From: a virus | Reading direction: 5' to 3' (one strand) | DNA length: 64,000 nucleotides | IMG/VR virus record: IMGVR_UViG_3300033553_000478 | Span: 1-64,000 of that record | Shown here: positions 5,917-55,623 of the stretch, in pieces | How the letters are laid out: each line of letters opens with the position of its first letter | How positions within the stretch are numbered: position 1 is the first letter of the stretch | Position numbers and translations under genes: made by a program | The notes under the pieces: model-generated | Told to the model about the DNA's origin: nothing | Database searches by the model: none | The model's input: the letters and a program-made list of their open reading frames with translations, nothing else

Positions 5917-6303
5917 TTATTCAATATTAATATCAGCTTCCCAGTCACCGGGAAGAGTGCCGTAATTTTGTCCTGTTTCCTGTTGCTGTTGTAATTCAAA
6001 AAATTCTTCTAAGCGTTGCATTACATTTTCATATAGGTTAGCAGAAGAAGCCAAAGGAGCAACCATTTGGTTGTTTTCTATCTGAATAATAACATCCCAC
6101 AACTGATAAGCTTTAGGGCCTATATCGCAAAGTTTTACAACCAACCCATTTTCATTTAAATAATAGTAATAACCTTTAGGAGTAATTCCATTTTTATCTA
6201 TCTCAATTTTATCTATAATAATACGGAGAATAATATCAACAGTTCCTCTCAAAGGAAGTTGAGCAGGTACTGTCTTGACTGTTTTGGTTCTTAGTTTTAG
6301 CAT
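5917..6303 (-). CDS. Hypothetical protein, 128 aa
   Basis: Small soluble protein with basic N-terminus (MLKLRTKTVKTVPAQLPLRG), a central beta-rich stretch containing KGYYYYLNENG, and an acidic C-terminus with a Gln-rich patch. It lies between the adhesin and the DUF1353-like gene. It could be a small tail or fibre assembly factor, by position only. Confidence 0.65.
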   Translation of the reverse strand: MLKLRTKTVKTVPAQLPLRGTVDIILRIIIDKIEIDKNGITPKGYYYYLNENGLVVKLCDIGPKAYQLWDVIIQIENNQMVAPLASSANLYENVMQRLEEFFELQQQQETGQNYGTLPGDWEADINIE

Positions 6304-6310
6304 AGTTATT

Positions 6311-21062: not shown

Positions 21063-23249
21063 TTAATTAATATTCATATTCCGCTTATGCTCTTCCAGAA
21101 TGAATGCGAAAGTATCATTCCCATACTTGGCCATTATCTCATCACGTTCCTCTTTTACTTTCTGTACAGCACTATTTTTAGATTCCTGGTATTGGCGTTT
21201 TTCATCACCTTCCAGATCATATTCCGGATCAAATATTGATCTCGACTCATTGTAATCATAAGGGTTATTATCCCGGTAATCTTCAGCGTAACTTTTAAAT
21301 TTATATTCTCCATTCTCAATTACCCAAGTTCCCATATCATCGATAATATCTCCATCTCTGGAGTCTTCATCAATACCATCGGAAATTTCACCAAACATTT
21401 CCAACTTATAGAACATACACATTGCATAAGCAGAACCTAAATCCGAGTTCTTATCACCGAAATCAATAAGGTGGTCTAAGATCTCTTCAAACCAAATATT
21501 GTTGAAGTTCTGGTTCACCTCTTTTTTCATTAGCCTGGTGGCAAAATTGAAAGCATACTGGTTCGGCATTTTTAAACCATACTGGTTTACAGCTCTGGAA
21601 TTATAACCGTGCTCCCCAAGATCTGGCCGAGCTTTCAAATGCTTCTCTCCATTGATATCAAGGAAATAATTTTTTATGGAAATTTTGGTATGCTCCAGTA
21701 ACATTTCAGAATCGTAGTAGACAGATAGCCTGAAAGTATTTGAGTAAAATTCATCGTCATTATCTGAGCTTCCCCTATCAAGGATATATGCTACTGGTAA
21801 ATCAAATTCTTTATTTGGACCACTGAATAATCGATATACAATAGTTGCCCCCAGCGATCCTGTTCCTTCGATCACATCATCATCATAACTATCACAACCA
21901 ATAATATCCGGATTGAATGGTAATCTTGAGTGGTCGATAGGATCCAGGATTTTTTTAATAGTTCCAAACTTCTCATTCTCCATAAATTTTATTGAAGAAC
22001 CTCTGTTGAAATGTATCTTATCAATTTCCTTTAAATCTTTTGCCCTGGAAACAAGCATTTTTGTTTGACTATCCTTAGGTACCCATTCCAAAGTTCCGGT
22101 TACGATTGGATAAGGACAATTTTCTAAATTGTTCTTTTGAGCATTAAGCTTTTTACGGTTTAATAAACCTCCGGAGTTTTTAATGAAGATATCAGACTCT
22201 TTCAGCGGATAGGATTGAATGTGTTTTACATATCCTTCCGCTCCCTCTTTTTCAGCACGTTCTTTTAGAATGTGCTTCAAAGCAGCCTCTTTGTTTGTAC
22301 GTCCGGTTTTGAAATCAAAGAATGAAATCTTCTTTCCGGTTTTTTCATCAGCAACACCATCCCCAGGATAGAAATCTGTAGAAGAAACGAATATCTTCTT
22401 CAGGTTATATTTCTCCGGGTTATCCCACATAATTTTATAACCCTTGGATCCTTTTTCAATTTCTCCACCGGTACCATAAATAAGCGGAGTTCCAAACTGA
22501 TCAGCTCCGTTTCTAAAACAAGGTTCAGTCGATTTGTAGGCAGCAATGATATCATCGAACAAACCGGCTTCCTCAAATACAGCCATTGAAAGAGTCTTAC
22601 CCTCGAATCCTGTTGGCTTGGCATACATCGTCTTCATATACATTGAAGACATAAGGCCACCCTCTTTCTGCTGTTTGTTCTCGGTATACCAGTAGCTTAA
22701 ACGAATTTCATCTTTGTTTTTTACACTGGTAGCTGCGCGATATTCTTCGCGAACATTGTCAAGGATATACCGAACTTTCTCATAGAAATCCTGAGCTTTA
22801 TCATCCTGTCCGGCAGCTACTCCAATCCTGTTGCCTTTGTAAAAAAGCAATTCGTATGCGCAAGCAGAGGATCCGAACCAGGACAATCCCACTCGACGTG
22901 GCTTACCTATGATCAGTCCATACATTCCACGCTTGGCATCATCCAGCGCATTGTACAAAACCCTGTCAAGTTCCCTGTAAAAAGGAGAACCCATAGTTTT
23001 CCGAGTTGCCCCGGGTTCCATGAGTTCTATATTACAGTTATTCAGGTAAAAATAATGCACCCCTGTTATCGACGGCATAAATGGCTTAGGCCGATATCCA
23101 GTAATACATCTGAGATCTTGTAAATCCCAGAAATCATCGTATGCTATAGTCCCTGGATTATAGTCAGGAATCTCCATATGAACCAATGGTTTATAGAGAT
23201 TACTGTCAAATTTATTCCAGTCAATGTTAACTTGCATATTGGGGGGCAT
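21063..23249 (-). CDS. terL: Terminase large subunit
   Basis: The 728-aa packaging ATPase-nuclease has a Walker A-like GKPRRVGLSW near residue 112, a Walker B-like MAVFEEAGLF near 221 and a coupling motif region (IFVSSTDFYPGDG). The RNase H-like nuclease half starts near 440 with the metal-binding Asp in DIIGCDSYDDD. It powers DNA translocation through the adjacent portal and cuts the concatemer. The start at 23249 (MPPNM) could alternatively be Met5. A terminator-like hairpin lies just upstream. Confidence 0.92.
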   Translation of the reverse strand: MPPNMQVNIDWNKFDSNLYKPLVHMEIPDYNPGTIAYDDFWDLQDLRCITGYRPKPFMPSITGVHYFYLNNCNIELMEPGATRKTMGSPFYRELDRVLYNALDDAKRGMYGLIIGKPRRVGLSWFGSSACAYELLFYKGNRIGVAAGQDDKAQDFYEKVRYILDNVREEYRAATSVKNKDEIRLSYWYTENKQQKEGGLMSSMYMKTMYAKPTGFEGKTLSMAVFEEAGLFDDIIAAYKSTEPCFRNGADQFGTPLIYGTGGEIEKGSKGYKIMWDNPEKYNLKKIFVSSTDFYPGDGVADEKTGKKISFFDFKTGRTNKEAALKHILKERAEKEGAEGYVKHIQSYPLKESDIFIKNSGGLLNRKKLNAQKNNLENCPYPIVTGTLEWVPKDSQTKMLVSRAKDLKEIDKIHFNRGSSIKFMENEKFGTIKKILDPIDHSRLPFNPDIIGCDSYDDDVIEGTGSLGATIVYRLFSGPNKEFDLPVAYILDRGSSDNDDEFYSNTFRLSVYYDSEMLLEHTKISIKNYFLDINGEKHLKARPDLGEHGYNSRAVNQYGLKMPNQYAFNFATRLMKKEVNQNFNNIWFEEILDHLIDFGDKNSDLGSAYAMCMFYKLEMFGEISDGIDEDSRDGDIIDDMGTWVIENGEYKFKSYAEDYRDNNPYDYNESRSIFDPEYDLEGDEKRQYQESKNSAVQKVKEERDEIMAKYGNDTFAFILEEHKRNMNIN

Positions 23250-24697: not shown

Positions 24698-24948
24698 TAG
24701 ATAGATTTGTATTTAATTTTCTTATTTCCTTTAATGTGCTTGACAAAGTACCCGCTTGAGCTGGGTGCATCGTACATAGTTTTCCATTGTCCTGCAGATA
24801 CAGGAATATAACTGTAAACACTATCATTCGTTTTGAAATGAACATATAATGTTTGTGCTGCAGGGTTGTAAACTACCTCTTCAATAAGAGAGCTTTCAGG
24901 TGTCTTTTTACGTGGCCAGTCAGGGTTCACGGGTACTTTATGGTCCAT
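24697..24948 (-). CDS. KTSC domain protein
   Basis: The 83-aa protein matches the KTSC domain pattern: SSLIEEVVYNPAAQTLYVHF near the N-terminus, a Tyr-x-Tyr strand (VYSYIPVSAGQW), then SSSGYFVKHIKG, with the Lys, Thr/Ser and Cys-site region at the end. KTSC proteins are small beta domains, sometimes next to nucleic-acid enzymes; function unknown. Start codon overlaps the GroEL stop. Confidence 0.75.
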   Translation of the reverse strand: MDHKVPVNPDWPRKKTPESSLIEEVVYNPAAQTLYVHFKTNDSVYSYIPVSAGQWKTMYDAPSSSGYFVKHIKGNKKIKYKSI

Positions 24949-26597
24949 TAATAACCAGGGGGATTTTGAAATTTCTTATATACTTCAGGATCTACGATAA
25001 CACATTCCGTAGTAAGTAGCATTCCGGCTATAGAGGCAGCACTTTCCAGCGCAACTCTTGTAACCTTTACAGGATCCATAATGCCGGAAGCGATCATATC
25101 ATCGCAAACTTTCCCGGTTCTGGCATCATAACCAGCACTGAAATTATCTGCAATTTTCCTGAAATCCATTTCCTCTAAATCTACTCCAACATTTTCAATG
25201 ATCATTCCGAAAGGTTCGCGTATAGCTCTAAGAACAATATTTGCTCCATACATTTTACTGGCATTTCTTTCTTTGGTGTCAAACTCAATAGTCGAAAGAG
25301 TTAATAATGCAGCTCCACCTCCAGGAATAATCCCTTCTTCATTTGCGGACTTTACCGCGTACAAAGCATCCTGAATCCTTCCTTGTTTCTCGATATATTC
25401 AGAATCGGAACGAGCGCCTATATTGATATAAGCAATTCCGTCTGATATCCTGGAGATACGAGTCTGCAATTGTGACTTCTCAAACTGCTGAGTAGTATTT
25501 TTCAAAACTTCCCGTAAATGATCAGCACGATCGGCCATTCTTTTCTGAATAACCTCATCCTCTTCATCGGAAACTCCAAAGGCACCTTTGATAGAAGTTA
25601 CCTGTTCCTGAACAGTAACTTCTTCAGACTGGGGAAGGTAATTGAAAATCTCTGCCGTAGGAAGATCTTCAAACTGTGTTCCTTCATTTTCAATGAAAGG
25701 ATCCTTACCCAATACAGCTCCTAAATCCCGAAGTAATTCCTCAGTTTCATTTCCGAAACCTGGGGCCCTTACTACACAACATTTGAAACCAGCTCTGGTA
25801 ACATTGTAGATAAGCATATCCTGAATGAGATCGTCAATGCCTGGGCAAATGATCAGTAAAGCTTTTTGAGTTCTACCACATTCCATTATCAGATGTTCCA
25901 AATTTGGCTCCATTTTGGAAAGCTTCTTATTGGTCATAAACACATAAGGCTCTTCCAAAATACAAGTTTCCTCTTTGTGGTTGTTTATGTAATATCTGGA
26001 ACGGTACCCGGTAGGTAAGGTCATACCTTCGATACTTGTCATATGCGTGACATAATCATTCGACCGCTTAATGTTTACAATTCCTTGTCTTCCTGCTACC
26101 TTAAAAGCTCTGGTCACAATATCTGCAGCTTCCTCATCATTGTTGGAAGCAACCAGGGCAACCTTTTTGAGCATTTCCAAATCATTCTCAACCGGCTTTG
26201 CTTTTTCAAGAAGCTGTTGAACGATTAATTCTACCGCTTCGTCGATACCCTTCTTAATATCGAGTAGGTTCAGTTCCTCAGGGAAATTTAATCCCTGTTG
26301 CAATATAGCTTCAGCAATAACAGTGGCGGTGGTAGTTCCATCTCCGGCTTTATTGTCGGTATTGTTGGCGATATCCTGCAGCGACTCAATGGCCACCATC
26401 TCAATAGGATCATCAGACCAAACCTGTCCGGCAACCGTTACTCCATCCTTGGTTGAGAATGGGCGGCTTTCCTGTCCGTTTCTAATTAAAACATTACGGC
26501 CAGATGGTCCTAATGTTACTTTTACTGCTCGGGCTATTTTATTGGCGCCCGCCAATAGGTTTTGGCGGGCCTCCAATGAATACATTGTTTTTTTCAT
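24948..26597 (-). CDS. groL: Phage-encoded GroEL chaperonin (HSP60)
   Basis: A near full-length group I chaperonin of 549 aa. Hallmarks: VKVTLGPSGRNVLI at 26-39, KDGVTVA near 50, GDGTTTAT at 85-92 containing the catalytic Asp, the APGFGN motif in the apical domain, EEGIIPGGGAAL around 418-428, and GIMDPVKVTRVALESAAS near the end. It lacks the usual C-terminal GGM repeat, ending instead in KKFQNPPGY. It should fold phage proteins such as the capsid. It is followed by KTSC and packaging genes; a GroES-like gene lies 0.9 kb upstream in the same transcript. Confidence 0.95.
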   Translation of the reverse strand: MKKTMYSLEARQNLLAGANKIARAVKVTLGPSGRNVLIRNGQESRPFSTKDGVTVAGQVWSDDPIEMVAIESLQDIANNTDNKAGDGTTTATVIAEAILQQGLNFPEELNLLDIKKGIDEAVELIVQQLLEKAKPVENDLEMLKKVALVASNNDEEAADIVTRAFKVAGRQGIVNIKRSNDYVTHMTSIEGMTLPTGYRSRYYINNHKEETCILEEPYVFMTNKKLSKMEPNLEHLIMECGRTQKALLIICPGIDDLIQDMLIYNVTRAGFKCCVVRAPGFGNETEELLRDLGAVLGKDPFIENEGTQFEDLPTAEIFNYLPQSEEVTVQEQVTSIKGAFGVSDEEDEVIQKRMADRADHLREVLKNTTQQFEKSQLQTRISRISDGIAYINIGARSDSEYIEKQGRIQDALYAVKSANEEGIIPGGGAALLTLSTIEFDTKERNASKMYGANIVLRAIREPFGMIIENVGVDLEEMDFRKIADNFSAGYDARTGKVCDDMIASGIMDPVKVTRVALESAASIAGMLLTTECVIVDPEVYKKFQNPPGY

Positions 26598-35208: not shown

Positions 35209-35484
35209 ATGGCAAATGAAGATAACAAGAAGCCTCTGAATATATCAGTGGCTTACATCACAAAGGAGCTCAAGAAAGACAACAGGATCTATCGCGGAGT
35301 TATGTATTACGGCGAAGATAATCGCCCCAAATATATGCGAGCAGTAGAATTCAAGACCGATGGCTACGGCCAATTCGTAAAGCATTGCTTCGATGAAGCA
35401 TTCAGGTTTGTAGGTGGAGAAGATAAATACTATCTCGGAACCTCAGACTTTCACAACATTGAAACCTTTAATCCCGGAACATAA
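35209..35484 (+). CDS. Hypothetical protein, 91 aa
   Basis: Soluble protein (NISVAYITKELKKDNRIYRG). Stop overlaps the start of the RadC-like gene (TAATGA). Unknown. Confidence 0.6.
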   Translation: MANEDNKKPLNISVAYITKELKKDNRIYRGVMYYGEDNRPKYMRAVEFKTDGYGQFVKHCFDEAFRFVGGEDKYYLGTSDFHNIETFNPGT

Positions 35485-35936
35485 TGATCACTTACCAAAC
35501 ACCTTGTTACAAATTCAGGATTATAAAAGAGCCTAATATGAAAGCTGCAAGATGCAAAATACAAAGCTCTTCCTGCATTTCAGAATATATGAAGGCATAT
35601 CATTATGCCGATGATATCTCAGTATATGAATCCTTCTGGATCATACTTCTGAATAACGCGAATAATACAATGGGATCCCATTTAATCTCAAGCGGTTCAA
35701 TAACAGGATGCCTGGTGGATATAAGACTTATAGCGAAATATGCGCTGGAAGTTCTGGCCACCTCAATCATTCTGGTGCACAATCACCCAAGTGGTAATTT
35801 GCACCCCAGTGAAGCTGACAAGCAAATCACCAAGAAAATAATGACTGGTCTCGAAAATTTAGACATAAAAGTTCTGGACCACATCATTGTAACTGATGAA
35901 AGCTATTTCAGCTTTGCAGATGAAGGCTTACTTTAG
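35484..35936 (+). CDS. RadC/JAB-domain metalloprotease-like protein
   Basis: 150 aa. The JAMM signature is clear: HNHPSGNLHPSEAD with metal-binding His99 and His101 and Asp112, and a likely catalytic Glu49 (YESFWIILLN). RadC-type JAB domains occur on phages, plasmids and islands; their substrate is unknown. JAB proteins of the deubiquitinase superfamily also accompany ubiquitin-like systems, and one lies about 7 kb downstream (42.8-47.7 kb). The N-terminal HhH part of full RadC is missing. Confidence 0.82.
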   Translation: MITYQTPCYKFRIIKEPNMKAARCKIQSSSCISEYMKAYHYADDISVYESFWIILLNNANNTMGSHLISSGSITGCLVDIRLIAKYALEVLATSIILVHNHPSGNLHPSEADKQITKKIMTGLENLDIKVLDHIIVTDESYFSFADEGLL

Positions 35937-38680: not shown

Positions 38681-41287
38681 ATGTCTAATATTGCTGAAAA
38701 AGTACAGCTTTTGTTTGATGTCGGAGAATTTGAGGTGAAACCCCCTAAGCCCGTAGTTCCTATTCCTAAGATGGAAATAGTAACCAGTGTTCCCTACATA
38801 GAGGTGGACATTGGTAACATCAGGCAAATGCTCCCAAAACTCTACGATCATCAGCAACAGGATGTGCTGAAAATAGAGAAACGATTTCAAGTAGGAAAAG
38901 GATATCTGTGTACCAACGGTACTGGTACAGGAAAAACATTCGTTGGACTCGGAACAGTTAAACGGTTCTGGGCAAAAGGATGTAGAAATATTCTTATTGT
39001 TACTCCTACTGAAACGAAGTGTGGTGACTGGATTGATGAAGGCAAGCACGTTAACCTGAAGCTTTATAAGCTGGAAGGTGTAAACGACAAAGGCCACAAT
39101 ATCCGCGTCACAACGTATGCTAACTATTATCAGAACGATGAGTTAGATACGGTTATATGGGATCTCGTAGTCTACGATGAATCTCATTACCTCAACCAAA
39201 ACTCCAAAGGAAATGAAACTGCTTATTTAACCAAGCATAAATTCATTACCAATCTGCCCTCTTCTGTAAAGAACAGAGCTGGAGATATTGTTGGTGATAA
39301 ACCCAAGTATGAACTTGGGAATGATTACGAACTATATCAATGGCAGCTCGATGCCTGGAGGAATCAAATGCGGACTTACATATTTGATACAGTCGGCAAG
39401 ACCAAAGTGTTATTCCTTTCAGCTACTCCATTCGCTTACCATAAATCAATCAAGTATGCGGATGGCTGTTTGTTCGATATCACAGAGTGTATAGAGGAAC
39501 AGGAAAACCCGAGATCTGGTTATTATAATGAACCATCTCCCTGGGAGAAGTTTATGATGGAGCATTTCGGTTACCGAATGAAACATAATAAGCTGACCAT
39601 TCCAGAAACAGGAGTAGATCAAAACCTTTTAGAACGTGCGTTCTTTGAGAACCACGTTCAAAAGGGTGTAATGTCAACCAAAATATTGGAATTGGATTAC
39701 GATTACTCCCGCGACTTCTTCCTTGTAGATAGTGAGCTTGGTCACTTCATAAACTCAGGAATTGAGATGTGGTGGAATAAGGATGTTTACGAGAAATATC
39801 CTCTTATGGCTAAAGTGGTACCGAAGAAATACCGGTACCTCTACATCAATCAACTTCTGGAAGCTATTAAAGCTAAGGAGATACTTGACAGGATCCAGCA
39901 ACATCTGGACCTTGGCCGCAAGGTTGTAATCTTTCATAGTTACAATCACGCTACCGTAGAGCATCCCTTCAGGTTCAATGAAGATAAGCTTACTACAGCA
40001 GACGAAGAATGGTGGAGATCTGACCTTCGGGATGAGATACAGAAATGGTATCAGCAATTCCCGCAGTATGCAAACCTCAGCTTAAAAGGATTGAATAACT
40101 GCAGGGCTACAATCCGTGAACGCTTTCCGGATGCATTAGAATTCAATGGTACCATATCCAAGAAAAAGAAGAAGCAAAATATTGAGCTCTTCAATGATGA
40201 TAACTCCGGATATGATATAATCATTGTTCAATCTAAGGCTGGCCGTGAGGGGATATCCCTTCACGACAATAAAGGTGGCAAGCCAAGGGTATTGATCAAT
40301 CAATCATTACCAGTGGCACCAACTGAAGCTATCCAAACTGAAGGTAGAATCTACCGAAGTGGTTTGCAGAGTAACGCGATGTTTGAATATCCTGTTATTC
40401 ACACAAGCTTTGAAATGGTAGCTTTCGCAACCACGATAGCATCAAGAGCCAAGACTGCAGAAAACCTGGCAATGGGCAATTACGCCCGAGATCTGGAAAC
40501 TGCATTCAAGGAAGGCTATATGAATGCGACAATTGAAGCTCCAAGCTTGGAGCAAGGAGTTGGCGGTAAAGAGAGTGATCGTAAGCTTCTGGAAATATCT
40601 GAGTTCGACAAAGCCAAAACATATTACTGGTCCAGAGCGAAAAAGAATTCCAAGAATAAGGCAGCTGAAGGAGTTGACTACTTCGCTACGCCTGAGCCGT
40701 TAGGTATGAAGATGGTAGAGTGGTTGGATCCACAACCAGACGAGCACGGTTTAGAACCTTCGGTTGGTCACGGAGCAATCGGAAGATGGTTCCCCGGATT
40801 TAGCAACAATGTATTCGTTGAGCCAAGTTTAAAGCTATTCGGAGAAATGGCAATAAACTGTACAGGCCGTCACGAGAATGTCACCTTTGAAGAATTTAAA
40901 ATAATAAACAAAGCTGACTTCATTGCAATGAATCCACCATTCGGACACCAGGGCAGGACTGCTATTGAGCATATTCAAAAAGCTCTGATACATATGAATC
41001 AGAGATCGATGAAAGGCGCAAGACTTCTGGCCATTATTCCTAATGGTCCAGCTATGGAAAAGAAACTTGATATCCTTATGGAGCATAAAATATTCAATAG
41101 CTTCAGGTATACAGGTGAGATCTTACTCCCAGAGGTTACTTTCAAGAGAGCCGGTACCGGTGTAATGTGTAGGATTATTAAAATCGAGCACGTCAACACA
41201 GGTAACGAGCAATTCAGGAGAATTGACTTATCACGTTGCTCAACTATCGAAGAGTTCTTCGACGAGATTGAGCATTTAAATTTCTAA
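38681..41287 (+). CDS. SF2 helicase fused to a DNA methyltransferase-like domain
   Basis: 868 aa. The N-terminal half is an SF2/SNF2-type motor: Walker A GTGTGKT at 80-86, DESH box near 165, LFLSATPF motif III, and QTEGRIYRSG motif VI near 552. The C-terminal third resembles an N6-adenine methyltransferase: FATPEPLGMKMVEWL, motif I EPSVGHGAIGRWF near 690, and NPPF motif IV near 750. Helicase-methylase fusions such as P1 DarB protect phage DNA from restriction. A target-recognition domain is not obvious, so modification is inferred. Confidence 0.82.
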   Translation: MSNIAEKVQLLFDVGEFEVKPPKPVVPIPKMEIVTSVPYIEVDIGNIRQMLPKLYDHQQQDVLKIEKRFQVGKGYLCTNGTGTGKTFVGLGTVKRFWAKGCRNILIVTPTETKCGDWIDEGKHVNLKLYKLEGVNDKGHNIRVTTYANYYQNDELDTVIWDLVVYDESHYLNQNSKGNETAYLTKHKFITNLPSSVKNRAGDIVGDKPKYELGNDYELYQWQLDAWRNQMRTYIFDTVGKTKVLFLSATPFAYHKSIKYADGCLFDITECIEEQENPRSGYYNEPSPWEKFMMEHFGYRMKHNKLTIPETGVDQNLLERAFFENHVQKGVMSTKILELDYDYSRDFFLVDSELGHFINSGIEMWWNKDVYEKYPLMAKVVPKKYRYLYINQLLEAIKAKEILDRIQQHLDLGRKVVIFHSYNHATVEHPFRFNEDKLTTADEEWWRSDLRDEIQKWYQQFPQYANLSLKGLNNCRATIRERFPDALEFNGTISKKKKKQNIELFNDDNSGYDIIIVQSKAGREGISLHDNKGGKPRVLINQSLPVAPTEAIQTEGRIYRSGLQSNAMFEYPVIHTSFEMVAFATTIASRAKTAENLAMGNYARDLETAFKEGYMNATIEAPSLEQGVGGKESDRKLLEISEFDKAKTYYWSRAKKNSKNKAAEGVDYFATPEPLGMKMVEWLDPQPDEHGLEPSVGHGAIGRWFPGFSNNVFVEPSLKLFGEMAINCTGRHENVTFEEFKIINKADFIAMNPPFGHQGRTAIEHIQKALIHMNQRSMKGARLLAIIPNGPAMEKKLDILMEHKIFNSFRYTGEILLPEVTFKRAGTGVMCRIIKIEHVNTGNEQFRRIDLSRCSTIEEFFDEIEHLNF

Positions 41288-42756: not shown

Positions 42757-44709
42757 ATGGAACAAATGACCAAAGAGCAGTATATGGAAATGCTTAACTG
42801 GGATCAATCCCTTTACAAAATCATATCTGGTGAGGAAGCCGAACCTTTGTTAAAAATCGGTGGCCACCAGAATTATGTTTATGCTGTTTCGCCTAAAGGT
42901 GAGAAAGCATTTGGTAAAGGATCCAAGGTTGTCAAGATTGATTGGGCAGAAAAGCATTCAGCCCCAGCCGTAGAGCAAACTCCTGCTGCAGCAATTCCAC
43001 CGCCACCGGCAAACATACCACCCGCCCCGGCCGCTGCAAGCATACCACCTCCACCAGCTACGGAAGCTGCTATTCCACCGCCTCCGGCACAGGAAGAAAA
43101 GCCAGTAGAAGATAACTCCGTTTATGAATTGAGATTGGCGCAGCTGAAATCAATTGGATGGAATCAGGTAAGTGATAATGTCCTTGAACGTAAAGACGGT
43201 AAGAGGGTAAGTAATGATTACCTGAAGATGATGAATGATGATGCATTTATGGATCTTATGAAAGCTCCCCTGGAAACTCCTAAAGAGGAACCAGTGAAGG
43301 AAGAAGTTAAACAGGCTGAGCCTGCTTGGGAACCATACATAAAAACCCGAGTGGCTAATTTAATTAGCCAAGGCTGGAAAGCCGATCAGAACGGCAATTC
43401 CGTTGTTATTTCCCCTGAAGGGAAATACTACGGATTTATGGAGATAGGTGAGCTCAGCAATAAAGATTACACCGATCTTATCAAAAAGCCGGAAGTTCCT
43501 GCAGAGATCAAAGAGATCGCAGATGCCTCTCCGAATGTGCATATAGTTACTATGCCTAAGGATGATGAACCTACGGCTGAAGATATCGCGAAAGAGAAAG
43601 CTAATAAGCTTTTACAAATTCGCAGAATTGCACTTTCAGCACTTGGTTTTACCAATGCTCCTGGAGCTGCTATGTGGCAATCTGATATCAATCACAACGT
43701 GAGCGATAAAGAAGTGATCGCAATGGGAGAAGATGAATTCAAAGACTTCCTGAAACTTATGGATGGTAAAATAGTTACCGTCAAAGCTCAGAAAGCCAGT
43801 GAAGATCGTCAGGCCAAAAATGAAGAAATCCGGAAGCAGAAAGAAGCTGAACAGTCTAATCCTGATGTAGGAGTTGAAATAGCAAATGAAGCTGCTGAGG
43901 TTGCCGAGAAGTCAATAAATGAAATGGCAAATGAAACCGAAGGTATGTCAGCTGTAGAATTGGATGAACACGATGTTCGTAAACTTGCTATTGAGCAAGC
44001 TCAGAAACGTGATGATGCCGAGATCGATAAGTATGAGGCTGAGAAGAAAATGGATGAATTGATGGAGAAGCTTCAAAAAGAGAATGATGCTCACAAGGAG
44101 CAATTCGAGAAATGGAAGCAAGATCTCATTGCTGAAACTGAAGCGGAGAAAAAGAAAATCCGTGAAGAGTATCAGCAAAAAGAATCTCCAATGACCACCG
44201 GAGATGCTGGTGGCTTCTTCGGTTTGCTTGCAGAGCTGGGTTTTGGGCAGCTGAATTTATCAGTGACAAAGTTGGAAAGCAATAAGTTCAGCGTTATCGT
44301 GAAGCCTCAAAACTTCTCAGGCGATCCAGCGTTGGATGAAATTCGTCCAATGACTTTAAGCGGTTCTCCTGCAGAATTAGATGAAGGTTTCTTCGCTGCT
44401 ATCAGCCAGCCATTACAGAAAGTCCACGGTGTTATGAGTAACGCCCAGGCTGTGATCGCTGATCTGGAAGAGAAAGCCAAGAAAACCAAGGCTGCAGAGG
44501 AAGAGAAAAAGAAAGTCACCAAAGCTGTAGAAAAAGCTAAGAAGCATCATGATGATAAAGATTTTGATGCAAAAAGTGATGCCTCTCTGAAAACTGCAAA
44601 GAAGAATTGGGATGCTGTACTGGCATTGGATCCTGGTAATAAGGATGCAAAGGCCGGACTTGATAAGCTGGAGAAGCAAATCAAGGAGAATGCTGAAACT
44701 CTTCTTTAA
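42757..44709 (+). CDS. PRTRC system protein E, with long proline-rich and coiled-coil N-terminus
   Basis: 650 aa, far longer than a usual protein E. Residues about 484-590 carry the E domain: FFGLLAELGFGQLNLSVTKL, FSVIVKPQN, then MTLSGSPAELDEGFFAAISQ. Before it come a linker with IPPPP repeats (about 75-118), repeated small domains each near SIGWNQVSDNVLERKDGKRV, and a charged coiled coil (380-480). After it come a Lys/Glu helix and a TPR-like tail (ALDPGNKDAKAGLDKLEKQ). E is a core component of the ParB-related ThiF-related cassette; its biochemical role is unknown. Confidence 0.8.
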   Translation: MEQMTKEQYMEMLNWDQSLYKIISGEEAEPLLKIGGHQNYVYAVSPKGEKAFGKGSKVVKIDWAEKHSAPAVEQTPAAAIPPPPANIPPAPAAASIPPPPATEAAIPPPPAQEEKPVEDNSVYELRLAQLKSIGWNQVSDNVLERKDGKRVSNDYLKMMNDDAFMDLMKAPLETPKEEPVKEEVKQAEPAWEPYIKTRVANLISQGWKADQNGNSVVISPEGKYYGFMEIGELSNKDYTDLIKKPEVPAEIKEIADASPNVHIVTMPKDDEPTAEDIAKEKANKLLQIRRIALSALGFTNAPGAAMWQSDINHNVSDKEVIAMGEDEFKDFLKLMDGKIVTVKAQKASEDRQAKNEEIRKQKEAEQSNPDVGVEIANEAAEVAEKSINEMANETEGMSAVELDEHDVRKLAIEQAQKRDDAEIDKYEAEKKMDELMEKLQKENDAHKEQFEKWKQDLIAETEAEKKKIREEYQQKESPMTTGDAGGFFGLLAELGFGQLNLSVTKLESNKFSVIVKPQNFSGDPALDEIRPMTLSGSPAELDEGFFAAISQPLQKVHGVMSNAQAVIADLEEKAKKTKAAEEEKKKVTKAVEKAKKHHDDKDFDAKSDASLKTAKKNWDAVLALDPGNKDAKAGLDKLEKQIKENAETLL

Positions 44710-44873
44710 TGCTGGTATTAAAAGGCATTATCGTAGAGCAAAAGATCGAGTTCGGTAGGGGAGAGTCCAGAAACTTCTCCCCTGTCCTCGATACTTTAGA
44801 GAAAACTTATGAGCTGTCCGAAGAATTCAGACCGCACATTGGAAGAAAAATGACAATTATAATACAAGATTAA
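44709..44873 (+). CDS. Small protein inside the PRTRC cassette, 54 aa
   Basis: ATG 44709 overlaps the E stop codon (TAATG), and the stop is 1 bp before the protein C start. Sequence MLVLKGIIVEQKIEFGRGES then a C-terminal strand (KMTIIIQD). The beta-rich pattern suggests a small compact fold. I do not recognise it as a known PRTRC component. Confidence 0.55.
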   Translation: MLVLKGIIVEQKIEFGRGESRNFSPVLDTLEKTYELSEEFRPHIGRKMTIIIQD

Positions 44874-44874
44874 T

Positions 44875-45081
44875 ATGGCTTTAGAAACCGCAGAATTAAA
44901 GAGAGTATTCAAACACAAAGATGTTGAATTGGAAGATGTACCAGGTGCATCTTTGAAGGAAGTTTCAAAGATCTATTCAGGTGTATATCCTGAATTACTC
45001 AATACGATGCCTACATATAAGGATATCGTTGATGGAGTAGAGATTTATGAGTTCAATGCCAAAGTTGGCCTGAAAGGTTAA
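44875..45081 (+). CDS. PRTRC system protein C, ubiquitin-like
   Basis: 68 aa. The pattern matches PRTRC protein C: LKRVFKHKDVELEDVPGASL, EVSKIYSGVYPELLNTMP, then GVEIYEFNAKVGLKG. This family is classed in Pfam as a prokaryotic ubiquitin-like (Prok_Ub) domain. The protein ends in a free glycine, the residue an E1 enzyme would adenylate. It lies between protein E and the E2-like and E1-like genes. Conjugation activity has not been shown for PRTRC C and is inference. Confidence 0.85.
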   Translation: MALETAELKRVFKHKDVELEDVPGASLKEVSKIYSGVYPELLNTMPTYKDIVDGVEIYEFNAKVGLKG

Positions 45082-45083
45082 TT

Positions 45084-45278
45084 ATGTCATTTCTCAAAAA
45101 GTTCAGAGAATTATCAAAAGAGTCCGATTGGGGTAACCCCATCGGACTTTTAAATGATGAACAATCCAGAGAGTTATGCGAAGTAATAATAAGAAATCAG
45201 CAGAAAAAAGTCCAAAGCCAAAGCCGGCAGAAACGAGTAGATCCTACACAAATATCACGGAATATCTTTCTCACTTAG
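45084..45278 (+). CDS. Possible small protein overlapping the protein F start, 64 aa
   Basis: Starts 2 bp after protein C (MSFLKKFRELSKESDWGNPI). Its last third overlaps the protein F frame by 103 bp and becomes low in quality there. A strong hairpin lies inside it. Could be a real overlapping gene or a leader read-through frame. Confidence 0.4.
   Translation: MSFLKKFRELSKESDWGNPIGLLNDEQSRELCEVIIRNQQKKVQSQSRQKRVDPTQISRNIFLT
45118..45151 (+). terminator. Terminator or attenuator between PRTRC C and F
   Basis: Perfect 12-bp stem with one bulged T (45121-45133 with 45137-45148), 3-nt loop TAA, followed by TTTT. It would uncouple high expression of E and C from F, B and ThiF. Confidence 0.7.
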
Positions 45279-46339
45279 CGCCAATACATCATTATAGTAA
45301 GCTTGAGGTAATGGAGCAATTCGAGCCATTTAATTTCAATGGCATATCGAAAGAAGATTTTGAAAAGTTCCTCGAGAAGTTTGATGTAATGCTAAAGAAC
45401 AGTGGCTACGATCTGGATGATGATATAGAGAATATAGACTGCTTCAGTGACTTCTACAAATATCTTGGGCAATTCGCAAATAAGCTGAATTGTCATTATG
45501 ATATTGAGTATGAAGAATTGATGAGGTTCACTGGTGATTTACCTATTCAAGAAACAAACATTCAATCTATAAATACATATTGGGTTGAGAAGCTGATAGA
45601 TATTTTACCGCCAGACATAGCGCTGTATTTGGATTACACTTGTTTTGTAATCCTTCAGAGAGCTACCAAAGTTATGCATTATGATTACCACCTTGCGGAA
45701 GAACCTCTGGAGTATAAGTACGATGAAGAGGAAGAATATGCCGATCAAATACAGATGTGGCATAAGCTTAATAGTTACACTATTGTCCTGTACAAGAAGT
45801 TTATCAAGGACAAAAAAACCATAGTTTCACCTTGCCCGGTTATGAAAGGCAGGCCAGAGAAGGAGCAGCAAATAATTAAGATCTGCAAGTTCCTGGTGAA
45901 TCATAATGAATATATGGCACTTCAATTTATGCCGGTAAAATTCTACTTGCAGTGTTGCGGAGAGTCGCATGACGAAGATAGTGAGGAAATGAGCCATATA
46001 GCTACACAGCTTATTGATGGCGACGGAGAGTATGCCGTAGATGCATATTACAATGCTTATTACGTGCTGACTTATGATAACGGGAACAGCTCATTAATAG
46101 ATGATTATTGTGAGTTCCTGAACCAGGCATATCAAATGAATGAATGGTACCACGAAATGAGCAAGATTGTCAAGGTCAATCACAAGAATGAATTTATTCC
46201 TGTAAACAAGAAAGCCGCCAGAACAGTTGTAAAATATCACGACTCATTTGGCGATTTAAACGAACTTTTAAAAGCATATTACGATGAGAGAGTTGGTGCA
46301 AACAATGAAGCCTGTATCGCTGTTGACAGTGTACGATAG
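45176..46339 (+). CDS. PRTRC system protein F candidate
   Basis: 387 aa, helical, with a basic disordered start (MRSNNKKSAEKSPKPKPAET) and a folded body containing IDILPPDIALYLDYTCFVIL and a long acidic segment. Position between protein C and protein B, and the length, match PRTRC F. I could not verify individual signature residues, so the call leans on synteny. No membrane segment. Confidence 0.6.
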   Translation: MRSNNKKSAEKSPKPKPAETSRSYTNITEYLSHLAPIHHYSKLEVMEQFEPFNFNGISKEDFEKFLEKFDVMLKNSGYDLDDDIENIDCFSDFYKYLGQFANKLNCHYDIEYEELMRFTGDLPIQETNIQSINTYWVEKLIDILPPDIALYLDYTCFVILQRATKVMHYDYHLAEEPLEYKYDEEEEYADQIQMWHKLNSYTIVLYKKFIKDKKTIVSPCPVMKGRPEKEQQIIKICKFLVNHNEYMALQFMPVKFYLQCCGESHDEDSEEMSHIATQLIDGDGEYAVDAYYNAYYVLTYDNGNSSLIDDYCEFLNQAYQMNEWYHEMSKIVKVNHKNEFIPVNKKAARTVVKYHDSFGDLNELLKAYYDERVGANNEACIAVDSVR

Positions 46340-46907
46340 TGGCTATATAGATTACCGAGATGTATTGGAAGCGGGAAAGGTTTCAGCTTCCAGACCATTA
46401 TACCAGGAAACCATAAATGATATTTTCGCAAATCTGAGAGGTGATCATAACCTTAAAAGATTTGAAGGTGTCATTCCAAACAAAATGGTTTATGTGGATC
46501 CAATGAGAGATCTATTTGTCTGGACCAGAAAAGCGGAAGTCCGGGAACTTCTACATACAACAAAGAAACATTCCGGAAAATATGCTATTCCTACTCTTGT
46601 ATTTCGCATTGAGAAGGGCAGTGTGAGTGTTGTGGCCATAAAGAAATTGGCTATCAATTCTCCTGTATATATTCCCCCGTTTACAAACACAGCAAATGGC
46701 GATGTTTGTATGGGTTCCGCTTCTCTGAAAACCGAGACTTGCGACTGCATTGAAGATCTGGTTGAATATGCCGAAAACCAATTCTACAATTCCTATTTCA
46801 CTCATTCCCCGACTGAGTACCAGCTTTTGGGAAAAGGTAAATCTACCTTCCCCAAAAAGGAACTGAAGGCAATGGGTATTAACCTAAAGCAATTTATAAA
46901 TGGATAG
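46305..46907 (+). CDS. PRTRC system protein B, E2-like
   Basis: 200 aa from ATG 46305; ATG 46284 would add 7 residues, and both overlap protein F. The protein has PLYQETINDIFANLRGD, VDPMRDLFVWTRKAEVREL, and the conserved core PVYIPPFTNTANGDVCMGSA followed by FYNSYFTH. PRTRC B is the prokaryotic E2 family D (Prok-E2_D). Cys135 in DVCMGSA is the likely thioester cysteine and His167 in YFTH a conserved partner. It overlaps the E1-like gene by 8 bp. Confidence 0.83.
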   Translation: MKPVSLLTVYDSGYIDYRDVLEAGKVSASRPLYQETINDIFANLRGDHNLKRFEGVIPNKMVYVDPMRDLFVWTRKAEVRELLHTTKKHSGKYAIPTLVFRIEKGSVSVVAIKKLAINSPVYIPPFTNTANGDVCMGSASLKTETCDCIEDLVEYAENQFYNSYFTHSPTEYQLLGKGKSTFPKKELKAMGINLKQFING

Positions 46908-47682
46908 CTTGAAAGTTGATCCGTATTTAATAAACGGACAGCACAGAATAACTGTGCTCGTAGTGGGAGCTGGTGGAACTGGTGGAAAGGTACTTACCAA
47001 GCTTATAGCTTTACACGAAGCTTTGACAAGAATGGACCATCCTGGTCTATACGTTACAATGGTGGATCCTGACATAGTAGAGGATCACAATGTAGGCCGG
47101 CAATCAAATTTCAGTGCTGCAGATGTAGGCTACTACAAAGCTGATGCGCTGATTAGCAAAGTGAATGCCGCTTTCGGATATGATTGGGATTGTGAGAATG
47201 TACCATATAGCAATGCTCACGCTGCCAACATAGTATTTTCCTGTGTAGATAATGCTGAAGCCAGAGCCAAAATATTGGATGCATTTTTCAAAAGGCAGCA
47301 GATGTATGATACCAGGAAAGGCTTTTACATATTTGATTGCGGTAACGCCCGGGATTATGGCCAAGTCATTCTGACTGACCAGAAGCACACCCTGAAGCAT
47401 ATTGGTGATATTGTCCCGGATTGGGATAAGCAAGATACTGTAGAGCAGCAGGGAGAATCCTGTAGCTATGCTGAAAGCTTACGAAAGCAAGACCTATTCA
47501 TTAATGATTGGGTTGCTCTGTATGCAGTGAATCTCTTCAAAGAATTACTATTCAAAAAGGAGATTGATTACCAAGGAGTATTTTTCAATACTGCAGATTT
47601 TGATGCAGTTAAAATCAAGATTAACAATGGCAGTAAGAAACGGAGAAAGACTCGTAACAAATTGGTGGACCGAAAAAACTGA
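46900..47682 (+). CDS. PRTRC system ThiF-family protein, E1-like
   Basis: 260 aa. Rossmann ATP-binding loop VVGAGGTGG at 21-29, the E1 signature VDPDIVEDHNVGRQSNF with acidic and Arg adenylation residues near 55-71, CVDNAEAR near 113, and the PRTRC ThiF motif ESCSYAESLRKQDLFINDW with a candidate cysteine near 189. ThiF/MoeB/E1 enzymes adenylate the C-terminal glycine of ubiquitin-like proteins. A basic tail ends the protein. Overlaps protein B and the following small gene. Confidence 0.92.
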   Translation: MDSLKVDPYLINGQHRITVLVVGAGGTGGKVLTKLIALHEALTRMDHPGLYVTMVDPDIVEDHNVGRQSNFSAADVGYYKADALISKVNAAFGYDWDCENVPYSNAHAANIVFSCVDNAEARAKILDAFFKRQQMYDTRKGFYIFDCGNARDYGQVILTDQKHTLKHIGDIVPDWDKQDTVEQQGESCSYAESLRKQDLFINDWVALYAVNLFKELLFKKEIDYQGVFFNTADFDAVKIKINNGSKKRRKTRNKLVDRKN

Positions 47683-47836: not shown

Positions 47837-48091
47837 ATGGCTGAAACATTGGAAGATTTGAAGAAGCTTAAACAAGAATATGTTGAAGCTGAGGCTCAGA
47901 AGATCGTTGATTATATGGTCAAAAGAGAGCTGATTGAAACTCAGGAACAAACTTGTGATCATAGAAATTGGGATACGAAGAAACATACTCACTTCCCCGA
48001 GATAGCTGAAAGACTTAGGAAAGAATATGGGTTGCTGGTACTCAGCAAAGTTCGCCACGGCGTAACTGAATGGGATATAAGAATTAGATAA
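47837..48091 (+). CDS. Hypothetical protein, 84 aa
   Basis: Helical N-terminal half (LEDLKKLKQEYVEAEAQKIV) and a C-terminal part with KEYGLLVLSKVRHGVTEWDI. Its stop overlaps the dnaB start by one base, suggesting a helicase partner. Unknown. Confidence 0.6.
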   Translation: MAETLEDLKKLKQEYVEAEAQKIVDYMVKRELIETQEQTCDHRNWDTKKHTHFPEIAERLRKEYGLLVLSKVRHGVTEWDIRIR

Positions 48092-49545
48092 TGGATGCAG
48101 AAAATGAGGAATTTCAAATACCGCCACCACCGGTAGATATTCCTAAACCCCCACTTCCGGAAATAATATATCGGAAGGATCCTGAATATCCACCGCTTGA
48201 CAAAGGCAAAATACCGCCTCAAGCGGTAGACTTAGAGGAAGTGGTAATTGGAGCTCTTATGATTGACAAGCGGGCAGCGCCCGAGATAATGGGGTTTATG
48301 ACTCCAGATGTTTTCTATAAGAATGCACACCAAAATGCTTTTCAAGCCATACAGACCTTGTACGAGAAGGAATTACCCATCGACTTACTTACAGTCGTTG
48401 AGGAACTAAGACGTACAGGGAAGCTTGCTATTGTAGGTGGAGAGTATTATTTGATACAGCTTACTCAAAAGGTAAGTTCTGCAGCTCATATAGAATTTCA
48501 TTCTCGAATTATTTTACAGAAGTATGTACTTCGTAGAATGATACAGCTGGGAAATGTAGTCATTGAAGAAGCTTACAATCAAGATCCGGACATATTCGAT
48601 CTGATGGATAAGTTTGAAAATGATGTGCTGGATATTTCCAATACTGCCCAGAAAGGCAAAAAGGAATCCGGCCCTGCAGATCCTGGAGAGGAACTTCGAG
48701 AAAAGGTTAGACTTAAGAGAGAAGGAAAGACAATTGGATATCCTTCGGGAATTGAAGAGTTCGATAATTGGGCGGGTGGCTTCCTGAAAAGGTGGCTTTT
48801 CATATTGGGAGCCCGACCAGGTATGGGAAAGACTTCATTCATTGTTGCAGTCATATATCACTTAGCTTTCGAGAGAGGTGTAAAGGTTGCATTCTTTTCC
48901 CTTGAAATGGCAGCTATCGATATTAAGTATCGATTAGCTGCCAGGATCCTCGATATTCCATTCAGTAGAATAAATCTTGGAGAGCTCACAGATGAAGAAC
49001 TTGAAGAGGTAACTGAGATAGTATCAAAAATTGAGGACTATGGAATCAACATAATTGACAACGTAAGGAACCTCAGCAAGATTACTGTTGAAACCAAGAA
49101 GCTGAAAGAAGAAGGTTTTGAAATCTTCTTTTTGGATTATTTACAGCTGGTAGAGATATCCGGAACTTCCAAGGATTTAACTGGAGAGATGGTGATCATT
49201 ACCAGAACATTCAAATCACTTAAAAACGATTTAAACATTCCGTTCATTGCGCTATCACAGATTGACAGAATAGTGGATAAGCGGCCCGGTCATAGACCAT
49301 TAATTTCAGATCTTAAACAGGCAAGTTCTATAGAGCAGGATGCTGATATAGTAGCTTTCATTGTGAGGCCAGAGTATTATAATGAGAATAAAAGCAAGAT
49401 ACCTTTGCCACCAGGCAAACCGAATCCTGAATTTATTGCTCAGTTTATTATTGCAAAAGGAAGGAGTACCGGACTGAAAGATTTTGATATATATCTGGAT
49501 CTTTCAAAATTTATTTTGAAATCTGGTCATTCAGTACCTTTTTAA
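48091..49545 (+). CDS. dnaB: Replicative DNA helicase, DnaB-like
   Basis: 484 aa. A proline-rich start (FQIPPPPVDIPKPPLPE) precedes the DnaB N-terminal domain (EEVVIGALMIDKRAAPEIMG, GGEYYLIQLTQKVSSAAHIE) and the RecA-like motor with Walker A GARPGMGKTS near 240-249, SLEMAAIDIKYRLAAR (motif H1a), and the Walker B-like FFLDYLQLVE. Motif H4-like DLKQASSIEQDADIV follows. It forms a hexameric 5'-3' fork helicase. No primase gene was found beside it, so primase may be the host's. Confidence 0.93.
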   Translation: MDAENEEFQIPPPPVDIPKPPLPEIIYRKDPEYPPLDKGKIPPQAVDLEEVVIGALMIDKRAAPEIMGFMTPDVFYKNAHQNAFQAIQTLYEKELPIDLLTVVEELRRTGKLAIVGGEYYLIQLTQKVSSAAHIEFHSRIILQKYVLRRMIQLGNVVIEEAYNQDPDIFDLMDKFENDVLDISNTAQKGKKESGPADPGEELREKVRLKREGKTIGYPSGIEEFDNWAGGFLKRWLFILGARPGMGKTSFIVAVIYHLAFERGVKVAFFSLEMAAIDIKYRLAARILDIPFSRINLGELTDEELEEVTEIVSKIEDYGINIIDNVRNLSKITVETKKLKEEGFEIFFLDYLQLVEISGTSKDLTGEMVIITRTFKSLKNDLNIPFIALSQIDRIVDKRPGHRPLISDLKQASSIEQDADIVAFIVRPEYYNENKSKIPLPPGKPNPEFIAQFIIAKGRSTGLKDFDIYLDLSKFILKSGHSVPF

Positions 49546-54452: not shown

Positions 54453-54712
54453 TGGAGCAAGCGGAATTCAGAATGTTAGATGCATACAAGATCTTTCCTT
54501 TCTATCCGGATAGAGTTTTACTCTCGCCTCTTTATGATGATTTCAGTGGCAAATATGCTATGATGATCAATGAGATGCTTCCGAGTGGTAGACCAGGACA
54601 AACATTATTCGCTACCACAAAAGCCGTATTTGATAATGAAGAACAGGCAGTATTTTCAACATCGAAAATGCTGAAAATGACAATGCAAGTTGTAAAAATA
54701 TCTATGAACTAA
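54452..54712 (+). CDS. Hypothetical protein, 86 aa
   Basis: Soluble protein (RVLLSPLYDDFSGKYAMMIN) overlapping both neighbours by one base. Unknown. Confidence 0.6.
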   Translation: MEQAEFRMLDAYKIFPFYPDRVLLSPLYDDFSGKYAMMINEMLPSGRPGQTLFATTKAVFDNEEQAVFSTSKMLKMTMQVVKISMN

Positions 54713-55623
54713 TGGAATTAGATTTTGAAAAATATGGACAGCAGTTAACCGTCCTGTCCTTTGGAGCAGGACAGGACAGTACCGCAATACTTGTGCGTAT
54801 AATTGAAGATGCTCGCTTTAAAAGAGATTATGTGGTAGGTCAACTTATAGTTGTATTTGCCGATACCAAGAATGAGCACGCTCATACCTATGCTTATATC
54901 AGCTACATAAAGATGATTTGCAAGGTGGCTAAAATACCATTCGTTGTGGTAGAGCCTGAGAAGTGGGCAGGAGGAAAATGGAAGCAAGGTCTGGTTGGGT
55001 TCTGGAAGCAAAATAAAGCTGTAGGATCCAAAGCCTTTCCAAAAACCTGTACTGATCAATTAAAGATTAGGCCAATTTATAAGTGGCTGGAAGAGTTCAT
55101 TCATATCACTTTTGAAACCAAGAGTGTTGGGAAGAAGAAAGCTTTTTACGAGTACTTCTATAAATATGGAAAAGTTCGCGTACTGATCGGTATAGCATCC
55201 GGAGAGGAAAGCAGAGCTTCAAATGAACCTACCGGAATGAAATGGTTCGATGAGTGTGTTGAGAAGATCTACCCACTTATAGAGCAGAAAATGGATAGGG
55301 AAGCTTGTCAGCAGACAATTAACGCGTATGGGTATGTAGTGCCGAAACCGTCAAATTGTATGTTCTGCCCATTCCTATCGCTTCAGGAGTTACTTTATTT
55401 ATCAATGAAGGATCCCGGAGCATTTTTAGAATGGGTTGAAATAGAAGCTGAGAAGCTGAAAAACAATGAGCATAAAGGAGAAAAGAATCTTACAGTCTGG
55501 GGAACCAGAAAGACTCTTCCTGAAATGCGTGAGATAGCAATGGAAAAATATGGCCATTGGACTATGGAACAATTAGAAGAATATAAAATGTCACATGGAC
55601 ATTGTGTAAAAAGTAAATACTAA
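54712..55623 (+). CDS. PAPS reductase-like PP-loop protein
   Basis: 303 aa. PP-loop motif VLSFGAGQDSTAIL at 14-27 binds ATP. The protein shares the adenine-nucleotide alpha hydrolase fold with CysH and DndC. Cysteines in PKTCTDQLKI and SNCMFCPFLS suggest a metal or Fe-S site or sulfur chemistry. Such phage proteins may thiolate or modify nucleic acids or counter defence; none of this is shown. A typical CysH C-terminal ECGIH is absent. Confidence 0.75.
   Translation: MELDFEKYGQQLTVLSFGAGQDSTAILVRIIEDARFKRDYVVGQLIVVFADTKNEHAHTYAYISYIKMICKVAKIPFVVVEPEKWAGGKWKQGLVGFWKQNKAVGSKAFPKTCTDQLKIRPIYKWLEEFIHITFETKSVGKKKAFYEYFYKYGKVRVLIGIASGEESRASNEPTGMKWFDECVEKIYPLIEQKMDREACQQTINAYGYVVPKPSNCMFCPFLSLQELLYLSMKDPGAFLEWVEIEAEKLKNNEHKGEKNLTVWGTRKTLPEMREIAMEKYGHWTMEQLEEYKMSHGHCVKSKY

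Follow-up and report, generated by a model that had tools for sequence, protein, structure and literature searches.

Results

Gene content of the PRTRC cassette

The DNA analyzed here (the window) comprises positions 1 to 64,000 of the IMG/VR virus record IMGVR_UViG_3300033553_000478, which has 82,833 bases, is linear and may be incomplete. An initial annotation of the window had placed a PRTRC ubiquitin-like conjugation cassette at positions 42757–47682. An open reading frame (ORF) check of this interval showed six ORFs on the same (+) strand in the order E-C-S-F-B-ThiF. They were PRTRC protein E (650 amino acids, 42757–44709), PRTRC protein C (a 68-amino-acid ubiquitin-like [Ubl] modifier, 44875–45081), a small 64-amino-acid ORF between C and F that was assigned by position and is referred to as S (45084–45278), a protein F candidate (387 amino acids, 45176–46339), the E2-like PRTRC protein B (46284–46907), and the E1-like adenylating enzyme PRTRC ThiF (46900–47682). 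The overlaps were 103 nucleotides for S/F, 56 nucleotides for F/B and 8 nucleotides for B/ThiF. Curated profiles named four of the six ORFs: E (in its C-terminal domain only), C, B and ThiF. The same four proteins were recovered by hidden Markov models (HMMs) built from relatives with the window left out (E-values of 2.7e-68 for ThiF, 6.6e-31 for B, 4e-20 for E and 2.3e-14 for C), and a chance match is therefore excluded. The consecutive PRTRC E, C, B and ThiF genes of the initial annotation, whose gene list lacked S, were borne out by both the Pfam/NCBIfam profiles and the leave-window-out HMMs.

ThiF matched TIGR03736 at 1.1e-55 (188.6 bits, cut-off 144.75). A GxGGxG motif, D56, N64, R67-Q68, K80, D117 and the candidate catalytic C188 were invariant both in a 10-row alignment of plasmid and phage sequences and in a 17-row alignment mostly of viral-contig sequences, and Cys188 was also kept in diverged phage homologs, including that of crAss001. 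When the ThiF profile was compared with the PDB, it matched the adenylation domain of eukaryotic E1s (E = 2.7e-10) and, weakly, Cap2.

Protein B matched Pfam Prok-E2_D (PF14460) at 8e-17, above the gathering score; its match to TIGR03737 (2.8e-15, 56.3 bits) was below the cut-off of 131.45. B contained the motif P132-x-x-N135...C142-x-G144 and the residues F172-T-H174, of which F-T-H was kept in most relatives, and N135 and C142 were invariant in alignments of 20 and 23 rows. The best matches of the B profile among all PDB chains were UbcH7 chains, with the B cysteine aligned on the UbcH7 active-site cysteine at an E-value of about 0.8, an alignment that is suggestive only. The AlphaFold2 model of B was confident (predicted local distance difference test score [pLDDT] of 85), with strands preceding Cys142 and a helix following it, an arrangement compatible with the UBC fold. 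In the BFVD viral library, the model matched mostly unnamed or uncharacterised phage proteins.

Protein C matched TIGR03738 (47.1 bits, cut-off 45.95) and Pfam Prok_Ub (2.4e-11, above the gathering score). It ended in ...KVGLKG, so that the C-terminal glycine, which is invariant in relatives, is already exposed. Its AlphaFold2 model (pLDDT 76) had an E-E-H-E-E succession with the beta-grasp order of strands and helix, and its Foldseek neighbors in the PDB, none of which reached a significant E-value, were for the most part ubiquitin, SUMO and UBL domains; the model is consistent with a beta-grasp fold. The initial annotation had held that the set contained the three activities needed for a ubiquitin-like pathway. 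In agreement with this, genes for E1-like, E2-like and Ubl proteins were present, and the predicted E1 adenylation site and cysteine, the conserved cysteine of the E2-like protein and the exposed glycine of the putative modifier were all intact at the sequence level.

The Pfam PRTRC_E domain (PF19556, 3.9e-23) covered residues 486–644 of the 650 residues of E, and TIGR03741 gave 43.9 bits (cut-off 37.95). E in addition had a long N-terminal extension with proline-rich linkers. Look-alike short segments lay near residues 7, 123 and 194 between these linkers in the N-terminal 485 residues (window positions 42757–44200), and no significant internal repeat was found in this part by BLAST.

The F gene was recognizable by position and size only and remains a candidate. 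No profile matched it (45176–46339), and the F model TIGR03742 was silent in the phage; this is a narrow model that matched Burkholderia phage BgVeeders33 (OK665841), the record of locus L030 and pRK1-1, but gave no match in pQBR55, a PRTRC plasmid, or in the L022 and L015 records. S started 2 nucleotides past the stop codon of C. An ORF of 46–76 amino acids occupied this position in most cassettes, and it was in frame with C as a fusion in some phages carrying PRTRC protein A, a JAB peptidase with the profile TIGR03735. The treatment of S as a single family over all cassettes was rejected, the homology between the groups with and without A being merely marginal (E = 0.05).

Peptidase A and the C-terminal tail of protein C

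TIGR03735 was silent over the 82.8-kb record, with three positive controls matched. TIGR03734, the profile of the ParB family protein from which PRTRC takes its name, was silent in this phage, in BgVeeders33 and in the L022 and L030 records, with two plasmid controls matched. A was also absent from pQBR55 (TIGR03735) and was not annotated in pSMR5. Because both plasmids have genes named PRTRC, A is no obligate part of PRTRC.

We then compared the presence of A with the C terminus of protein C in 161 cassettes from phages, plasmids and genomes. Residues past the terminal glycine of C were found in none of the 39 cassettes without A and in 90 of the 122 cassettes with A, where the tail ranged from one to about 97 residues. 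The association had a Fisher p of 4e-18 with the cassettes counted singly, the loci being related. No independent pair on the ThiF tree contradicted the rule, which is phylogenetically only suggestive. This pattern is the one expected if A matures C, and if C is produced directly in its mature form by phages that lack A.

In several phages the tail of C resembled S fused in frame. At loci L028, L033, L037, L048, L053, L063, L076, L081, L084–L086 and L090–L092, S seemed to continue the C Ubl as an in-frame fusion joined at GTKG. The C-S fusion in phages carrying A recalls the ubiquitin-ribosomal fusions.

Related cassettes in phages, plasmids and genomes

The search of INPHARED phages with the window ThiF gave two relatives at first, and a profile scan of IMG/VR showed that 138 loci encode relatives. 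Among the best 80 of these 138 loci, which were studied, most had the order E-C-F-B-(A)-ThiF. A terminase (PF03354) was present in 30 of the 50 IMG/VR carrier records tested; the terminase family PF03237 matched only 3 of 34 carriers. L022, on a 139-kb contig, had the same crAss-type terminase as the window. Single-protein IMG/VR scans with the ThiF of the window and of L022 returned nothing or the query's own contig alone, and no part of the B alignment was sufficiently conserved for scanning. Relatives were found in 356 plasmid records, and in the plasmids that were read, the cassette mostly adjoined a ParB-family gene. ORFs resembling histidine kinase and transposase genes adjoin the cassette in MT839883, a record that was deposited as a phage but may be bacterial; it was excluded from the phage evidence.

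In the ThiF tree, the window fell in a well-supported 19-row clade of mainly A-less viral-contig cassettes and some bacterial ones, on a long branch whose exact place is unsure. The highest identity of the window ThiF to a relative in plasmids, genomes or phages was about 40%, so that the source of the cassette is untraceable.

Searches with other relatives detected ThiF genes in crAss001 and its kin, KLEB27-3, D69/D148/D181, Arash and ME3. In Bacillus phage KLEB27-3 (OM634661), four tandem Prok_Ub units with a 171-bp period (Pfam 5e-27) lay at L176:736–1443, each ending in GVKG, with the gene tail MPRIVVK, and were followed by E2_D-like, JAB and PRTRC_ThiF-like genes. Vibrio phage D69 had three Ubl-like units at L178:2301–3092, each ending in GTKG and separated by spacers, with E2-like, JAB and ThiF genes downstream. 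In both of these JAB-bearing phages, tandem units ending in G[TV]KG have the form expected of a precursor that is cut after glycine. The annotated ThiF coding sequence of D69 (6103–6858) was the later part only, the homologous frame starting further upstream. Salmonella phage Arash (OQ632216, 176281–180718; L179, L182) had an unrecognised set of E2-like, JAB and ThiF genes and a 66-amino-acid Ubl-like ORF ending in RTGTKG in a frame other than that of the annotated gp251c, which appears to have been annotated in the wrong frame. The virion-proteome table of Arash was not used, since the protein numbers of the paper and of GenBank could not be safely matched. KLEB27-3, D69/D148/D181 and Arash had Ubl, E2_D-like, JAB and ThiF genes in the same order; they differed from the window set in that most of their parts were below the curated cut-offs, a JAB gene was present, and the Ubl was in tandem in KLEB27-3 and D69.

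In Bacteroides phage crAss001, the JAB-like gp77 adjoined the ThiF gp76 between the primase and uracil-DNA glycosylase genes, and no recognizable E2 was found at this ThiF/JAB locus. Within gp75–gp79 (L175:4241–9463), gp77 carried the JAMM motif HSHNNMATFFSGTD, and the N terminus of gp79 was a possible Ubl domain, for which a PDB sequence search gave nothing. The set of Acinetobacter phage ME3 looked degenerate, with an E2-like protein lacking the cysteine and a Ubl ending in NKAA, and was set aside. The ME3 JAB gene (L181:3736–6846) seemed split by an insertion of a tRNA and three small ORFs, and ME3 gp326 and gp131 both matched the PRTRC A HMM. Single parts had been annotated earlier, as "PRTRC system protein A" in ME3 and in a PRTRC_A note in KLEB27-3.

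Taken by gene homology, the window phage is not the sole carrier, and dozens of other phages, several of them cultured, hold related sets. The phage setting of PRTRC is real and wider than the initial annotation supposed.

The carrier phage and the neighborhood of the cassette

The record carried terminase, portal, major head protein and tail fibre genes, in agreement with the phage carriage that had been proposed. The crAss-type terminase large subunit (21063–23249, − strand; phrog_6681, 2.1e-50) was about 25% identical to those of crAss-like phages, and the portal protein (18799–21036, − strand; phrog_6547, 1.7e-41) was nearest to crAss-like portals. The best matches of the two proteins were thus in crAss-like phages, at 21–26% identity only. 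By these marker genes, the carrier is a real bacterial virus and probably a distant relative of the gut crAss-like phages. Searches of the 82.8-kb record, which is possibly incomplete, gave neither a tyrosine integrase nor a serine recombinase; the absence of such matches is the single ground for considering the phage likely lytic, as the initial annotation had called it.

The cassette lay between a DarB-like helicase-methyltransferase gene (38681–41287, + strand; about 40% identity over 95% to phage proteins) and the gene for the DnaB replicative helicase (48091–49545, + strand; Pfam DnaB_C, 3e-58), with genes for an HU-like protein, a UvrD-type helicase and an exonuclease beyond. Three of the phage relatives of the DarB-like gene were annotated as DarB-like antirestriction. 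The early-block setting claimed for the cassette agrees with its position among these DNA-transaction genes.

A RadC-like JAB protein of the JAMM superfamily was encoded at 35484–35936 (+ strand; Pfam RadC, 7.1e-39), and the description of the phage as lacking any JAMM protein was dropped for this reason. The gene is in the same early block as the cassette, and its relatives also occurred within the PRTRC loci L015, L114 and L161; RadC may be linked to PRTRC, and the protein is a possible partner of the cassette. Elsewhere, the phage encoded a GroEL-like chaperonin (window 24948–26597; phrog_5725, 6.7e-123), and L002:1–10836 (genome 63001–73836) encoded a protein of at least 3612 amino acids with a metalloprotease-like HELSHIYY motif, which is probably a giant polyvalent or virion protein.

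Discussion

In this study, we found the genes for PRTRC E, C, B and ThiF in conserved order on a bacterial virus, with conserved catalytic residues and an exposed glycine on the Ubl protein, and, across related cassettes, an association between peptidase A and a C-terminal tail on C. Like the PRTRC sets of plasmids and integrative and conjugative elements (ICEs), the window has E, C and ThiF, a B recognized by Pfam but below the NCBIfam cut-off, the order E-C-F-B-(A)-ThiF and the same active-site residues. Unlike them, it lies on a phage, has neither A nor ParB, has an F that is not recognizable, and has an E of 650 amino acids rather than about 140–180. By its gene content, the window encodes a variant of PRTRC that lacks both A and ParB. 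The set closest to curated PRTRC was that of BgVeeders33, a deposited phage that also has structural genes; the set runs E-C-S-F-B-A-ThiF, and its ThiF is about 37% identical to that of the window. It differs in having A (TIGR03735, 1.2e-66), a 62-residue tail on C and a temperate-looking genome, and all of its cassette genes except ThiF are annotated as hypothetical proteins.

The passages of Iyer et al. (2006; PMC1779556) that treat such operons predicted Ubl conjugation for them and assigned this operon type to group 6d, which has a Bacteroides member, a JAB protein, an E2 with a histidine after the cysteine, and a fast-diverging helical protein; phages are mentioned there for the tail protein TAPI. 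The Bil, Bub and CBASS Cap2/Cap3 systems (cf. PMC10097602) share bacterial E1, E2 and JAB chemistry, with a Ubl in Bil and Bub, and differ in being host systems, not phage genes. The window ThiF scored 188.6 bits with PRTRC_ThiF against 21.6 bits with a cap2_3-type model. In the open-access literature (subscription journals and preprints being outside its scope), 26 papers contain the letters PRTRC, some of them by chance; we found no account of PRTRC in phages in their accessible text, and relevant work joining crAss-like phages with ubiquitin-like systems was likewise not found in open-access literature.

We consider it probable that the phage encodes a ubiquitin-like conjugation pathway of the PRTRC type, in which C would be activated via ThiF and B and proteins would be tagged in early infection. 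ThiF would adenylate the exposed C-terminal glycine of C using ATP and hold C as a thioester on Cys188, from which C would be handed to the E2-like B, at Cys142. Attachment of C to one or more proteins would then fall to B, possibly with guidance from E, F and S. In many relatives, chiefly on proteobacterial phages, the JAB peptidase A would need to trim the tail of C, and in the window phage, which has neither A nor tail, C would be ready for use as made. We infer the enzyme activity, the transfer steps and the conjugation itself from the conserved residues and by analogy with known E1/E2 chemistry. A working Ubl pathway is supported by the A/tail pattern and by the tandem Ubl genes in diverged deposited phages. 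The targets would most likely be DNA-transaction proteins of the phage or the host, a guess that we base on the DarB-like, DnaB, HU-like and exonuclease neighbors and on the recurrence of PRTRC on replicons.

Several results weigh against a conjugation pathway of this kind. C ends in K-G, not in G-G. Profile matches and predicted folds had been proposed as checks on the cassette; C and ThiF matched their profiles, B matched Pfam Prok-E2_D but fell below the TIGR03737 cut-off, and the C model was consistent with a beta-grasp fold, but none of the 50 PDB matches that Foldseek listed for the B model was an E2 or reached E ≤ 0.001, so that the E2 fold expected of the modeled B is not confirmed by structure search. 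The protein F proposed initially fitted in position and size, but not in homology: TIGR03742 was silent, and a leave-one-out HMM of the other F genes gave an E-value of 200, with shuffled sequences scoring higher. On the ThiF tree, there were six changes of A and two independent pairs on well-supported branches, and the sign test of the A/tail rule was not significant. Furthermore, the RadC-like JAB protein elsewhere in the phage could act on C.

The main rival is counter-defence, in which the phage would tag a host immune protein or jam CBASS Cap2/Cap3 or Bil with a competing modifier. The adjoining DarB-like gene, kin of phage proteins annotated as antirestriction, the related E1/E2/JAB chemistry of Bil and CBASS, and the weak PDB match of the ThiF profile to Cap2 all speak for it, but hundreds of plasmids hold the cassette, mostly beside a ParB-family gene in those read, a setting that suggests element upkeep no less than immunity, and a defence target was not seen; we regard counter-defence as rather unlikely. 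We give still less credence to superinfection exclusion or defence, in which the set would spoil competing phages as Bil modifies phage tails. Many A-bearing carriers are indeed records of about 40 kb that resemble prophages of isolate genomes, and an integrase-like ORF lies close to the cassette of BgVeeders33, whereas neither an integrase nor a recombinase was found in the window phage, which holds the set inside its replication block.

That C is instead a ThiS/MoaD-like sulfur carrier, activated by ThiF for thiocarboxylation, seems highly improbable. The ThiF and MoeB families are close, and the phage has a PAPS-reductase-like gene at 54712–55623, but C and ThiF are accompanied by an E2-like protein with an invariant cysteine and often by a JAB peptidase, sulfur carriers need no E2, and relatives have tandem Ubl genes. 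We would be just as surprised if the cassette were a passenger from a plasmid or ICE with no function in the phage life cycle: its ThiF identity of at most about 40%, its untraceable source and an F diverged beyond recognition would fit a passenger, but the catalytic residues and the gene order have survived such divergence, and the set occurs in phage groups that are unrelated to one another.

Beyond the window, there is about an even chance that several unrelated phage groups run their own Ubl tagging in infection, some via polyubiquitin-like precursors cut by a JAB peptidase and others via a Ubl encoded in mature form. If the phage-encoded PRTRC pathway that we favor is active, viruses of bacteria, and not the defences of their hosts, would here encode the ubiquitin-like tagging. 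The maturation of eukaryotic ubiquitin has direct parallels in the tandem Ubl genes and in the association of JAB with the tail of C, and the phage carriers, several of them deposited complete with named hosts, offer a short, synchronous life cycle for the study of PRTRC.

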